Positions 33,362-53,024 of a stretch of 64,000 bases of DNA are shown here, piece after piece. The DNA lies in contig NZ_JAJQXW010000001.1 of NCBI RefSeq assembly GCF_021246445.1, positions 1,568,168-1,632,167 of the forward strand, read 5' to 3'. Source of the stretch: Rhabdothermincola salaria. GTDB taxonomy: Bacteria; Actinomycetota; Acidimicrobiia; Acidimicrobiales; Acidimicrobilacustridaceae. The notes below the pieces were generated by a model. It saw only the letters and a program-made list of their open reading frames with translations. It made no database searches and was not told where the DNA came from. A program made the position numbers and the translations under genes. Each line of letters starts with the position of its first letter. Within the stretch, counting starts at the first letter, position 1.

Positions 33362-35014
33362 TCAGTCCGAGCCGTGCAGCAGGCCGTACTGGATGGAGTC
33401 CATCAAGGCCTGCCACGAGGCCTCGATCACGTTGCTGTCGACGCCGACGGTCGTCCAGACCCGTTCGCCGTCGGTGGAGTCGACCAGCACCCGCACCACC
33501 GCCCCGGTGGCCGCTCCGCCGTCGACGACACGCACCTTGAAGTCGGTGAGGTGGATGCGGTCGAGCACCGGGAAGCGCCCGTTGAGAGCGCGCCGCACGG
33601 CGGCGTCGAGGGCGTTGACCGGGCCGTTGCCCTCGCCCACGGCGGCGACGCGGTGGCCGTCGATCCACAGCTTGACCGTGGCCTCCACGGTGACCTCGAC
33701 CTCGCCGCTGGGCATGACCGGACCCTCGCGGTGGTAGCTCGAGACGCGGTAGGCCTCCACCTGGAAGAAGGACTGCTCCCAGCCGGCGGCTCGACGCATC
33801 AGCAGCTCGAGCGAGGCGTCGGCGGCTTCGAAGGTCCAGCCGACGGACTCGAGGCGCTTGAGGTCCTCGCTGAGGGCGCCCGCGGCGCGGTCGTCGAGCT
33901 CGAGCCCGAACTCGGCGGCCTTCATGGACATGCCGGCCCGGCCACCGAGGTCGGAGACGAGGACCCGGGTGTGGTTGCCGACGACCGAGGGGTCGACGTG
34001 CTCGTAGGTGGCTCCGCCGGCGCGGCCGAGCGCCGAGGTGTGCAGGCCGCCCTTGTGGGCGAAGGCGGAGACGCCGACGAAGGGGTCGGAGGGCTGGGGC
34101 GGCAGGTTGACCAGCTCGGCCACCCGGTGGCTCACCAGGGTGAGCCGCTCCATGCGGCCCTCGGGGAGGGTGGCCACGCCGAGCTTGAGGGTGAGGTCGG
34201 GGATGACCGTCATCAGGTTGGCGTTGCCGGTGCGTTCGCCGTAGCCGTTGATGGTGCCCTGGACCTGGGTCGCCCCACCGAGCACCGCGGCCACGGAGTT
34301 GGCCACCGCGCAGCCCGAGTCGTTCTGGGTGTGGATGCCGACCGCCACGTCGGCGCCCAGGTGCGAGGTGATCTGGGTGGTGATGTGCTGGACCTCGTGG
34401 GGCAGCGAACCGCCGTTGGTGTCGCACAGCACCACGCAGGCGGCGCCGTTGACCGCAGCCGCCTCGAGCACCCGGAGGGCGTACTCGGGGTTGGCCTTGT
34501 AGCCGTCGAAGAAGTGCTCGGCGTCGAAGAAGACCCGCAGGCCCGCATCGGCCAGGAAGCGCACCGACTCGCCGACCATGGCCACGCCCTCGTCGAGGGT
34601 GGTGCGCAGAGCCTCGGTGACGTGGAAGTCCCAGCTCTTGCCCACGATGCACACCGTGCCGGTGCCGGCTCCCACCAACGCCGACAGGGTGGGGTCGACG
34701 TCGACCTTGCCGGCGGGACGGCGGGTGGAGCCGAAGGCCACCAGCTCGGCGGTGGAGAGATCGAGCTCGGTGGGTGCGCGCCGGAAGAACTCCTCGTCGC
34801 GGGGGTTGGCCTGCGGGTACCCGCCCTCGATCCAGCGGACGCCGAGCCAGTCGAGCTGCTCGGCGACGCGCAGCTTGTCGTCGACCGTGAGCGAGATGCC
34901 CTCGAACTGGGCGCCGTCGCGCAGCGTCGTGTCGAAGATCTCGACCGACTCGGGGAGCTGGGGGGTGCCGGCGGCCGTGGCGCCGGGGCGGGGTGCGCCG
35001 TTGCTAGTGGACAT
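33362..35014 (-). CDS. cimA: (R)-citramalate synthase
   Basis: A 550-residue DRE-TIM enzyme. It begins the catalytic domain with DTTLRDGAQFEG (residues about 28-39). It has the metal site GIHTQNDSGCAVANS, where leuA has a STHCHNDLG version, and an LeuA-type regulatory dimer domain at the C-terminus (FKVRVVDGG). It condenses pyruvate and acetyl-CoA to citramalate, the threonine-independent entry to isoleucine. It is third in the leuB-ilvE-cimA operon; its first bases overlap the ilvE stop by 11. Distinguishing it from leuA is helped by a clear leuA at 51-53 kb. Confidence 0.9.
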   Translation of the reverse strand: MSTSNGAPRPGATAAGTPQLPESVEIFDTTLRDGAQFEGISLTVDDKLRVAEQLDWLGVRWIEGGYPQANPRDEEFFRRAPTELDLSTAELVAFGSTRRPAGKVDVDPTLSALVGAGTGTVCIVGKSWDFHVTEALRTTLDEGVAMVGESVRFLADAGLRVFFDAEHFFDGYKANPEYALRVLEAAAVNGAACVVLCDTNGGSLPHEVQHITTQITSHLGADVAVGIHTQNDSGCAVANSVAAVLGGATQVQGTINGYGERTGNANLMTVIPDLTLKLGVATLPEGRMERLTLVSHRVAELVNLPPQPSDPFVGVSAFAHKGGLHTSALGRAGGATYEHVDPSVVGNHTRVLVSDLGGRAGMSMKAAEFGLELDDRAAGALSEDLKRLESVGWTFEAADASLELLMRRAAGWEQSFFQVEAYRVSSYHREGPVMPSGEVEVTVEATVKLWIDGHRVAAVGEGNGPVNALDAAVRRALNGRFPVLDRIHLTDFKVRVVDGGAATGAVVRVLVDSTDGERVWTTVGVDSNVIEASWQALMDSIQYGLLHGSD

Positions 35015-35921
35015 GCTCCAACCAGTCCTTGTAGCGGTCGACCTCGCCGCGCACGGTTCGGGCGTACTCGGCTGCGATGGCCGTGGTCATCGGGCCGGGG
35101 CACGGGATGTCCCGGTCGTCGACCGAGTTGACCGCCGAGACCTCGGCGGCGGTGCCGCACACGAACATCTCCTCGCAGACGTAGAGGTCGCTGCGGGTGA
35201 GGTAGTCGAAGCGGACCTCGAAGCCGAAGTCCTTGGCGATGGCGATCACCGTGTCCTGGGTGAGGCCCTCGAGGGCCCCGGCGGCCACCGGCGGGGTGAC
35301 GAGCACGCCGTCGCGGGCCACGAAGATGTTCTCGCCGGTGCACTCGCTCACGAACCCCTGCGGGCTGAGCATGATGGCTTCGTCGTAGCCAGCCTTGAGG
35401 GCCTCGACCTTGGCCAGCGAGGAGTTCACGTAGTTGCCGGTGGTCTTGGACGCCGGCGGCATGGTGTTGTGGTCGTGGCGGGTCCACGACGAGATCTTCA
35501 TGCGCACGCCCTTGGTGACCGCCTCCTCGCCCAGGTAGGCGCCCCACGGCCAGCAGGCGATGGACACGTCGATGGAGCAGGGCAGGGTGTTGAGGCCCAT
35601 CTCGCCGTAGCCGTAGTAGGCGATGGGACGGATGTAGGCCGATGGCAACCCGCTGGCCCGCACCACGTCCTTGGTGGCCTGCACCAGCTCCTCGACGGAG
35701 TAGGGCAGCTCCATCCCCATGATCTTGGCCGAGTTGTGCAGGCGGGCCATGTGCTCGGTGAGACGGAACACGGCCGGGCCCTGGGGCGTCTCGTAGGCCC
35801 GGATGCCCTCGAACACGCCCATGCCGTAGTGCAGGGTGTGGGTGAGCACGTGGATGCGGGCGTCGTCCCAGGCGACGAGCTCGCCGTTCATCCAGATCTT
35901 CTCGGTGGGTGTGATGGGCAC
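35004..35921 (-). CDS. ilvE: Branched-chain amino acid aminotransferase
   Basis: A 305-residue class IV PLP aminotransferase. It has IWMNGELVAWDDA, HTLHYGMGVFEGIRAY near residues 29-44, a Lys in the PPASKTTGNYVNS region, EALKAGYDEAIML and SECTGENIFVARDG, all diagnostic. It catalyses the last step of Leu, Ile and Val synthesis. The GTG at 35921 is chosen because AGGGGG lies just upstream. It is 14 bp after the leuB stop and overlaps cimA by 11 bp, so the three form one operon under the leader at 37053-37094. Confidence 0.94.
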   Translation of the reverse strand: MPITPTEKIWMNGELVAWDDARIHVLTHTLHYGMGVFEGIRAYETPQGPAVFRLTEHMARLHNSAKIMGMELPYSVEELVQATKDVVRASGLPSAYIRPIAYYGYGEMGLNTLPCSIDVSIACWPWGAYLGEEAVTKGVRMKISSWTRHDHNTMPPASKTTGNYVNSSLAKVEALKAGYDEAIMLSPQGFVSECTGENIFVARDGVLVTPPVAAGALEGLTQDTVIAIAKDFGFEVRFDYLTRSDLYVCEEMFVCGTAAEVSAVNSVDDRDIPCPGPMTTAIAAEYARTVRGEVDRYKDWLEHVH

Positions 35922-35935
35922 AGGTGTTCCCCCTG

Positions 35936-36910
35936 TTACAGCCGGCCGGCGACAGCGTCGCCGATCTCGGTGGTGGATCCGGTGAGGGTGGCGGTCTCGG
36001 CACACGCCGCACGGATGCGTGCGGCCGCGTCGGCCTCGCCCAGGAAGTCGAGCATCATGGCCGCCGAGAGGATGGCGGCGACCGGGTTGGCCTTGTTCTG
36101 ACCGGCGATGTCGGGGGCCGAGCCGTGCACCGGCTCGAACATCGACGGTCCGGTGCGATCGGGGTTGAGGTTGCCCGAGGAGGCGAGCCCGATGCCCCCC
36201 GACACCGCTCCACCCAGATCGGTGAGGATGTCGCCGAAGAGGTTGTCGGTGACGATCACGTCGTAGCGCTGCGGGCTCTCGACGAAGTAGATGCACGCGG
36301 CATCGACGTGGTTGTAGGCGGTCTCCACATCGGGGTACTCGGCGGCCACGGCGTCGAAGGTGCGCTCCCACAGGTCGCCGGCGAAGGTGAGCACGTTGGT
36401 CTTGTGGACCAACGTGAGGTGCTTGCGCTCCCGGCTGCGAGCCAGCTCGAAGGCGTAGCGCACGCAGCGCTCGACCCCGAAGCGGGTGTTGACCGACCCC
36501 TGCGTGGCGACCTCGTGGGGGGTCCCCTTGCGCAGGAAACCGCCCTCGCCGGCGTAGGTGCCCTCGGTGTTCTCGCGGATCACGATGAACTCGTGCCCGG
36601 GGGCCAGGAACGGACGCTGGTTCACGTAGAGGTCGAGGTCGAAGCGCATCTTGAGCAACAGCCCCCGCTCGATGACGCCAGGAGGCACGTCGGGGGTGCC
36701 TACCGCACCGAGGAAGAGGGCGTCGAGACCACGCCACTCGGCGATGGTGGCGTCGTCGAGGACGACCCCGTCGCGCAGGTAGCGCTCACCGCCGAGGTCG
36801 TAGTCGACCGTGTCGAGCTCGACACCCGCCGCCCGCACGATGCCGAGCGCGATCGGGACGACCTCGTGGCCGATGCCGTCTCCGGGGATGACTCCGATCC
36901 TGTGACTCAA
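35936..36910 (-). CDS. leuB: 3-isopropylmalate dehydrogenase
   Basis: A 324-residue NAD-dependent decarboxylating dehydrogenase. [14 protein letters not shown] is at about 5-18. [46 protein letters not shown] and [14 protein letters not shown] are core motifs. It oxidises 3-isopropylmalate to the leucine keto-acid precursor. I chose TTG at 36910 because GGAG lies at good spacing and homology begins there. The in-frame extension to 37036 runs into the regulatory leader and is not needed. It leads the operon. Confidence 0.92.
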
Positions 36911-36943: not shown

Positions 36944-36988
36944 CGTCGGCTCTCCCGACGACGGGGCCACAGTGTGCACAGCGGCCCC
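36944..36988 (-). promoter_or_regulatory. Hairpins in the leuB leader (possible attenuator)
   Basis: Two stems lie between the leader peptide and leuB. GGGGCC-14-GGCCCC spans 36963-36988 and CGTCGG-GAGAG-CCGACG spans 36944-36960 on the minus strand. A 9-bp stem (37030-37052) with loop TTCGT abuts the leader stop. Neither downstream stem has a T-run, so intrinsic termination is less certain than at leuA, and translational or Rho-linked control is also possible. Confidence 0.45.
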
Positions 36989-37052
36989 TACAACGACAAA
37001 GCCGCCCACCAGGTGGACGGCCAGAGAAGCGCACACCGACGAACGGCGTGCG

Positions 37053-37094
37053 CTACCGAATGATCGCTACCAGGGTCGTGGGGGCGACGGGCAC
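37053..37094 (-). CDS. Branched-chain leader peptide of leuB-ilvE-cimA
   Basis: GTG to TAG, 13 residues: [13 protein letters not shown]. Six residues (Val, Leu, Val, Ile, Ile, plus the Ala between) make a Leu-Val-Ala-Ile-Ile block just before the stop, with the rare codons GTA and ATT. A TACACT -10 box lies 7 bases before the GTG, so the start codon would be the first transcribed bases. A 9-bp stem with loop TTCGT begins right after the stop codon, and further hairpins precede leuB. All three branched-chain amino acids are read, fitting an operon that serves Leu, Ile and Val. Too short to be recognised by homology. Confidence 0.65.
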
Positions 37095-37101
37095 GACGCA
37101 G

Positions 37102-37107
37102 AGTGTA
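37102..37107 (-). promoter_or_regulatory. -10 box of the leuB leader transcript
   Basis: TACACT on the minus strand, 7 bases before the leader GTG; transcription would start at or beside the G of GTG. The -35 region (TGTGCG) is weak. Confidence 0.5.
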
Positions 37108-40860: not shown

Positions 40861-41005
40861 ACAAGCAGGACGCAGACGGACCCACCCCACCAGGGCCCGG
40901 CCACCACGAGGGTGGCTCCCCGGTCGAGGTGGACAGCCGAGACGCGACGTCGGGCTCGAGATGCGCCGGTCGGCCCCCGCCGGCGCCGACGAAAGGACCG
41001 CACCC

Positions 41006-52880: not shown

Positions 52881-52924
52881 GCGAAAACGCAAGAACCCCC
52901 TGGCCCGGTGGGCACAGGAGGTTC
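52881..52924 (-). terminator. Attenuator terminator of leuA
   Basis: Read on the minus strand, GAACCTCCTG pairs with CAGGGGGTTC and an inner GCCC/GGGC stem closes an ACC loop, about 14 bp in total (52893-52924) with one bulged T. It is directly followed by TTGCGTTTT, giving a T-rich tract rare in this genome. It lies between the Leu-rich leader peptide and the leuA start. An alternative pairing GCGAGC/GCTCGC (52926-52951) upstream may act as the pause or anti-terminator partner. Confidence 0.75.
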
Positions 52925-52952
52925 AGCGAGCACCGATGTGGGGGCGCTCGCC

Positions 52953-52988
52953 CTACGTAAGGAGAAGCTCGAAGCGTGTCGAGGACAT
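52953..52988 (-). CDS. leuA leader peptide
   Basis: ATG to TAG, 11 residues: MSSTRFELLLT, with three consecutive Leu codons CTT CTC CTT. CTT is rare in this GC-rich genome. The stop lies 28 bases before a strong terminator hairpin, the geometry of a leucine attenuator like those known for leu operons of other bacteria. CACACT with TTGACG upstream ends 7 bases before the ATG, so it is probably translated from the first base of the transcript. When Leu-tRNA is low, the ribosome would stall at the Leu codons and let the anti-terminator form. Confidence 0.8.
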   Translation of the reverse strand: MSSTRFELLLT

Positions 52989-52995
52989 GTCGGTC

Positions 52996-53024
52996 AGTGT
53001 GCCGGGACGCTCACCGAACGTCAA
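52996..53024 (-). promoter_or_regulatory. Promoter of the leuA leader
   Basis: TTGACG (53019-53024) and CACACT (52996-53001) are separated by exactly 17 bases, and 7 bases separate the -10 from the leader ATG. It begins 20 bp after the serA stop, so leuA does not depend on read-through from serA. Confidence 0.7.

Follow-up and report, generated by a model that had tools for sequence, protein, structure and literature searches.

The stretch of the Rhabdothermincola salaria genome analysed here (64,000 nt, referred to as the window; coordinates are window positions unless stated otherwise) carries the operon leuB-ilvE-cimA on its minus strand. leuB, encoding 3-isopropylmalate dehydrogenase (35936-36910), begins with TTG, and its translation scored over the cut-off of NCBIfam model NF002898; ilvE, encoding a branched-chain aminotransferase (35004-35921), begins with GTG and scored over the cut-offs of NF005146 and TIGR01122; and cimA, encoding citramalate synthase (33362-35014), overlaps the end of ilvE by 11 nt and matched TIGR00977 with 657.6 bits against a cut-off of 450. 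Citramalate, the product of CimA, lies on the route to isoleucine, and cimA is the committed step to that amino acid. A search of the organism's own genome for threonine deaminase (TIGR01127) gave no match over the cut-off, the best being partial with 51 of 378.75 bits, which makes the citramalate pathway the probable source of isoleucine in this genome. The gene divergent to the operon, upstream of the leader described below, is greA. Elsewhere in the window, an IclR-type regulator gene (40829-40164, minus strand) lies divergent to leuCD (leuC at 40961, plus strand); it matched only PcaR and BhcR models, below their cut-offs, and we presume that it may be a counterpart of LtbR/NdgR.

Upstream of leuB, a -10-like hexamer, TACACT (37107-37102), is followed after a 7-nt gap, the spacing of a leaderless start, by a GTG (37094-37092) that opens a frame of 13 sense codons and a TAG ending at 37053. 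The initial annotation had proposed this frame as a branched-chain-specific leader peptide, and the hexamer, the gap and the 14-codon frame were all found where it had placed them. It had likewise correctly read the five residues preceding the arginine, Leu-Val-Ala-Ile-Ile, from CTG GTA GCG ATC ATT, of which GTA, ATC and ATT are the control codons. A leuB start at 37036, which would have put the frame inside leuB, was not supported, since leuB homology begins at the TTG at 36910 and the relatives start there too.

The leader frame is directly followed by a stem (stem 1), in which 37052-37044 pairs with 37038-37030. The 9-bp stem abutting the stop codon at 37030-37052 had been noticed before; it grows to 10 bp (37029-37053) if the G of the stop codon (37053) is counted as pairing with C37029. 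Between the leader frame and leuB, the first gene, stands a feature that the initial annotation left unnamed: a hairpin at 37021-37001, GCCGTCCACC-T-GGTGGGCGGC on the minus strand, with the T-rich tail TTTGTCGTT at 37000-36992. Judged from its sequence and from the alignment of relatives, this hairpin and tail (36992-37021) are a conserved intrinsic terminator. Two more hairpins reported ahead of leuB do exist (36988-36963 and 36960-36944, minus strand) and, by eye, are missing upstream of leuB in the nearest relative (L003). The first of these hairpins gave a match to the Rfam family BjrC68 at E=0.012, under the gathering score of that family; it was the only Rfam 15 match at E up to 1. At gathering scores, Rfam 15 gave no T-box, riboswitch or leader family, and its sole match was tRNA-Gln.

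To compare relatives, leuB upstream regions were drawn from 61 genomes and 80 named loci. From these, 49 leuB loci were taken by hand and one (L073) was added by eye; near-duplicates, weak or misplaced candidates and one locus ending in TGA (L127) were left out. One alignment (A1) held 49 of the 50 loci, with L136 dropped, and a second (A2) held 46. In many of the relatives the layout was alike, with Val/Ile codons followed by TAG, an abutting stem and the terminator; TAG was present in 46 of 46 rows, rows having been picked with TAG. In the 46 sequences, stem 1 was paired in 93.9% of cells and varied at both positions of 8 of its 10 pairs, and the terminator was paired in 98.2% of cells and followed by a T-rich tail. 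Taken together, the two stems were paired in 96.1% of cells compared to 33.9-51.8% for slid partners, and both-sided changes occurred in 11 of 20 pairs, a kind of count that kinship inflates. The comparison across relatives confirms that the leader before leuB-ilvE-cimA is real and conserved, its translation being predicted. The element is not universal among close relatives; none was found before leuB in several members of the window's own family (L013, L017, L018, L019, L028, L030, L111 and L138). Three leuB loci from records titled Bifidobacterium breve MAG (L031, L035 and L071) encode LeuB proteins 88, 77 and 68% identical to that of the window and look mislabelled.

Covariance models recovered the same element. 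Model R2, built from 30 elements of other families, none from genomes G000-G036 and with leuB at most 81% identical to the window's, recovered the site (37070-36991) with E=2.8e-15 when run on the whole window; its other four matches there had E values of 0.17, 3.1, 4.3 and 8.5, the first being the palindrome of this terminator read on the opposite strand. With a threshold of E up to 0.01, the full model, R1, gave matches in 196 of 296 genomes sampled from the class (148 of the 210 good-quality genomes); with E up to 0.001, it matched 44 of 296 genomes of a phylum sample. Twenty of the latter genomes lie outside the class, and 19 were taken into the analysis; they gave 20 stretches, with 13 before ilvB, 2 before leuB and 5 without a match to the five query proteins.

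In 100 genomes with a completeness of at least 90%, R1 gave 129 matches in 79 genomes, and 120 of the matches precede leuB (39), cimA (26), ilvB (54) or leuA (1). The remaining nine, among them G119:C18:89073-89147, G184:C39:20144-20231 and G130:C139:20790-20869, were left unassigned to these genes, and several of the nine are weak or partial. In the 47 genomes that have leuB next to cimA, the element preceded leuB in 35 and cimA in 4, and 8 had none at either gene. In the 30 genomes with the two genes separated or split between contigs, it preceded cimA in 17 and leuB in 3, and 10 had none at either gene. Thus 17 of the 20 elements in genomes with separated genes are at cimA, and the other three are at contig breaks: leuB is 2 nt from the contig end in G082 and 31 nt in G167, and cimA lacks its first 122 residues in G212. 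Among genomes with only one of the two genes matched, the element was before cimA in 5 of 6 that have cimA and before leuB in 1 of 8 that have leuB. The element tracks cimA, the isoleucine-committed step, rather than leuB.

The genome of the window holds two sister elements. The one before leuA (52893-53001, minus strand) has CACACT at 53001, the peptide MSSTRFELLLT (52988-52953), a stem abutting the leader frame (52952-52926) and then a terminator (52924-52893); the one before ilvB (L171, G000:C1:1643708-1643625, minus strand) lies about 11.5 kb past the window end and has the peptide MSPADIIVISLVVLR. Sequences of further elements were taken from the 100-genome sample for 48 of the 54 ilvB matches and, anew, for 14 of the 39 leuB matches. 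By target gene, cimA leaders read Ile-Ile-Ile, ilvB leaders Leu/Val(/Ile) and leuA leaders Leu-Leu-Leu. All four classes share a short linker between the hairpins (median 2-5 nt; 3-8 nt from stem 1 to terminator in leuB elements) and a terminator that starts about 28-31 nt past the stop codon. In view of these sequences, the leuB leader is best read as belonging to a single module that occurs in four forms with exchanged codons, before leuB, cimA, ilvB and leuA. Some cimA leaders (L293, L295, L296, L297 and L306) end in TGA instead of TAG, and their stem then starts with a G directly after the stop codon, so the base of the stem seems to carry more weight than the stop codon itself.

Taking the control codons as positions -5 to -2 before the leader stop, 213 of the 256 control codons in 64 leuB elements, a set that includes close relatives and perhaps one species twice, encode Ile or Val (132 Ile, 81 Val and 2 Leu). 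Corresponding numbers were 87 Ile, 2 Val and 0 Leu of 100 in cimA elements and 19 Ile, 81 Val and 54 Leu of 156 in ilvB elements. In leuA elements there were 0 Ile, 3 Val and 92 Leu of 120, in a set that was collected by its Leu run. Model R1 spans the five codons ahead of the stop and is thereby biased toward Ile/Val-rich matches. Ile occupies -4, -3 and -2 in 24 of 26 cimA leaders, and 30 of 32 genomes have L-L-L-x-stop ahead of leuA. Read from these codons, the conserved signal of the leuB leader is Ile plus Val, not Leu, and this signal fits the operon because CimA feeds the isoleucine route.

The initial annotation had matched the peptide to an operon serving Leu, Ile and Val. A control-codon leader does precede leuB-ilvE-cimA, but its leucine part did not hold, since Leu makes up only 2 of the 256 control codons and the element tracks cimA. 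The Leu of the window peptide lies outside its own -5 to -2 positions and appears incidental. It was borne out that the leuA leader, with MSSTRFELLLT, differs in specificity from the Ile/Val signal before leuB. The multivalent Leu/Val/Ile sensor first proposed is thus improbable as an alternative; the window peptide does have Leu before Val-Ala-Ile-Ile and IlvE serves all three branched-chain amino acids, yet Leu is nearly absent from leuB control codons and wholly so from cimA ones, compared to about a third of those in ilvB elements.

The control codons are also rare ones. GTA and ATT had been called rare, and in ten window genes ATT accounts for 0 of 185 Ile codons, GTA for 3 of 387 Val codons and CTT for 3 of 347 Leu codons. 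In the leaders, with rarity gauged in the window genes, ATT makes up 60 of 132 Ile codons (leuB), GTA 54 of 81 Val codons (ilvB) and CTT 37 of 92 Leu codons (leuA). Within the last six codons of the genome's own three leaders, 6 of 12 Ile/Leu/Val codons are rare compared to 7 of 919 in the ten genes, for a set of rare codons picked after the counts were seen.

Leader start codons were examined with the pattern of a start 5-9 nt behind [TC]ANNNT, comparing in-frame to out-of-frame starts. An in-frame start at this spacing was present in 36 of 50 leuB elements. Counted by starts, the spacing was found for 38/99 in-frame and 5/87 out-of-frame starts in leuB elements, 8/21 and 0/28 in the 14 further leuB elements, 30/94 and 8/90 in ilvB elements, and 15/62 and 1/41 in leuA elements. 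The spacing was not supported in cimA elements, where 9/46 in-frame and 5/46 out-of-frame starts gave no clear excess. Mycobacteria translate leaderless starts at promoter distance (PMC4633059). For the leader before leuB, we infer a leaderless start and translation of the frame.

With a probability of roughly 85%, we consider the leader to be a transcription attenuator that senses the supply of isoleucine (and valine) and controls leuB-ilvE-cimA. From the promoter, transcription would begin on or close to the first codon of the leader, and a ribosome would translate the 13 codons, which close in rare Val and Ile codons. With ample charged tRNA, the ribosome would reach the UAG and the transcript would end at the terminator before leuB; with scarce charged tRNA, it would stall on the control codons, stem 1 would act differently and RNA polymerase would read through. 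We infer the response to amino acids, and its direction, from the sequence. It is very improbable that the terminator is constitutive and the short frame conserved but free of regulation, or that an RNA-binding protein binds here; either would agree with the failure to find a conserved antiterminator (see below), but the control codons vary with the downstream gene across four operon classes and use rare codons, and the frame, stop codon and stem hold a fixed geometry across elements.

One way in which stalling could prevent termination is that of a classical attenuator (1:2/2:3/3:4). While a stalled ribosome sits on the 5' arm of stem 1 (A), its 3' arm (B) would form an antiterminator by pairing with C, the 5' arm of the terminator. 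B is G-rich and C is C-rich, a 7-pair B:C helix was paired in 84.0% of cells compared to 35.6-61.4% for slid partners, and in the leuB class alone B fits its own C better than the C of other classes (-5.80 vs -4.89 kcal/mol). Against this, B:C showed no covariation, its pair 41-62 was broken in 25 of 46 sequences, and own B:C was weaker than swapped B:C over 158 elements (-4.31 vs -4.66). Own B:C pairing also averaged -5.63 compared to -6.31 kcal/mol when B was shuffled, with 0 of 46 in the best 5%, and fold energies gave no clear support for B:C. The swap test used 158 of 168 elements, those that gave both hairpins, and had A:B and C:D as positive controls, which hold in part by construction, complementarity having guided the choice of arms; in it the pairings A:D, U:C, U:D, U:B and U:A, with U as the final 24 nt of the coding frame, did not outperform those with swapped partners. 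By covariation, shuffling and swapping, tests uncalibrated on known attenuators, a conserved antiterminator sharing bases with the terminator was not found.

Assuming that a ribosome covers 12 nt beyond the first base of its A-site codon, stem 1 was computed to be formed at 0.97 with the ribosome at -4, 0.86 at -3, 0.42 at -2 and 0.00 at the stop codon, and the C arm was mostly free. Movement of the ribosome between the control codons and the stop codon would therefore chiefly alter stem 1. Since stem 1 would be formed with the ribosome paused at -4 or -3 but melted once it is at the stop codon, the change has the wrong sign for the classical scheme, which we regard as unlikely. Stem 1 itself may instead be the switch, being near the terminator and fully melted only with a ribosome at the stop codon; we favour this scheme, though tentatively. 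By analogy, stem 1 would favour readthrough, as suggested by the model for M. tuberculosis ilvB1, in which a ribosome at the stop codon prevents an antiterminator. More broadly, and at somewhat less than even odds, branched-chain operons of the Acidimicrobiia may share a two-hairpin attenuator without a base-sharing antiterminator, in which stem 1 senses ribosome position and the swap of three or four codons assigns a new end product.

If this attenuator reading holds, the citramalate route to isoleucine gains an end-product control that was not found described in the literature searched. That search, which took in only a minority of subscription papers, returned no leader peptide described for citramalate synthase, for Acidimicrobi- or for cimA-leuB in the text available to it, the sole match being a paper on a methanogen (PMC13158618). 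A gene bearing an Ile leader flags the isoleucine-committed step for genome annotation. In addition, four natural codon versions in an otherwise fixed geometry make it testable how actinobacterial leaders, said to miss classical parts (PMC1262725), can work.

Comparison with known systems, by their published descriptions, places the element in a familiar group. Described in Actinobacteria are ilvB leaders, a LEU element of leuA, and trp and leuS attenuators, with remarks on their missing parts (PMC1262725), as well as a Corynebacterium ilvB uORF, or ilvB-II motif (PMC10272879). For ilvB1 of M. tuberculosis, replacement of the LVVI control codons by Ala codons abolished induction, and the authors proposed that a ribosome at the stop codon prevents the antiterminator, whereas one stalled at LVVI allows it (PMC13236596). 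Like these ilvB leaders (PMC1262725, PMC10272879, PMC13236596), the elements described here have a short Val/Leu/Ile-rich frame before a terminator; unlike them, again as compared by description, they stand before leuB-ilvE-cimA or cimA, carry control codons for Ile and Val or for Ile alone, and have a stem 1 that starts in the stop codon. The LEU element is described as a pseudoknot in which a run of Leu codons pairs with the leuA Shine-Dalgarno (PMC1262725), whereas the present elements carry an intrinsic terminator and those before leuB have no Leu run. Mycobacterial leaderless short frames (PMC4633059) likewise have a start codon at promoter distance and need no Shine-Dalgarno, and cysteine-rich ones were proposed as attenuators; the present leaders differ from them in their amino acids and clear intrinsic terminator. 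As in enterobacterial trp, leu and ilv attenuators, control codons and a terminator precede the first gene, and rare control codons are known from the leu leader, though not as a general feature (PMC1183508); unlike in those attenuators, no conserved antiterminator was found here and stem 1, apart from the stop-codon G in its first pair, sits entirely past the leader frame. What stands out is the antiterminator that was not found, the tie of Ile-only and Ile/Val leaders to cimA, and the four-way codon swap.
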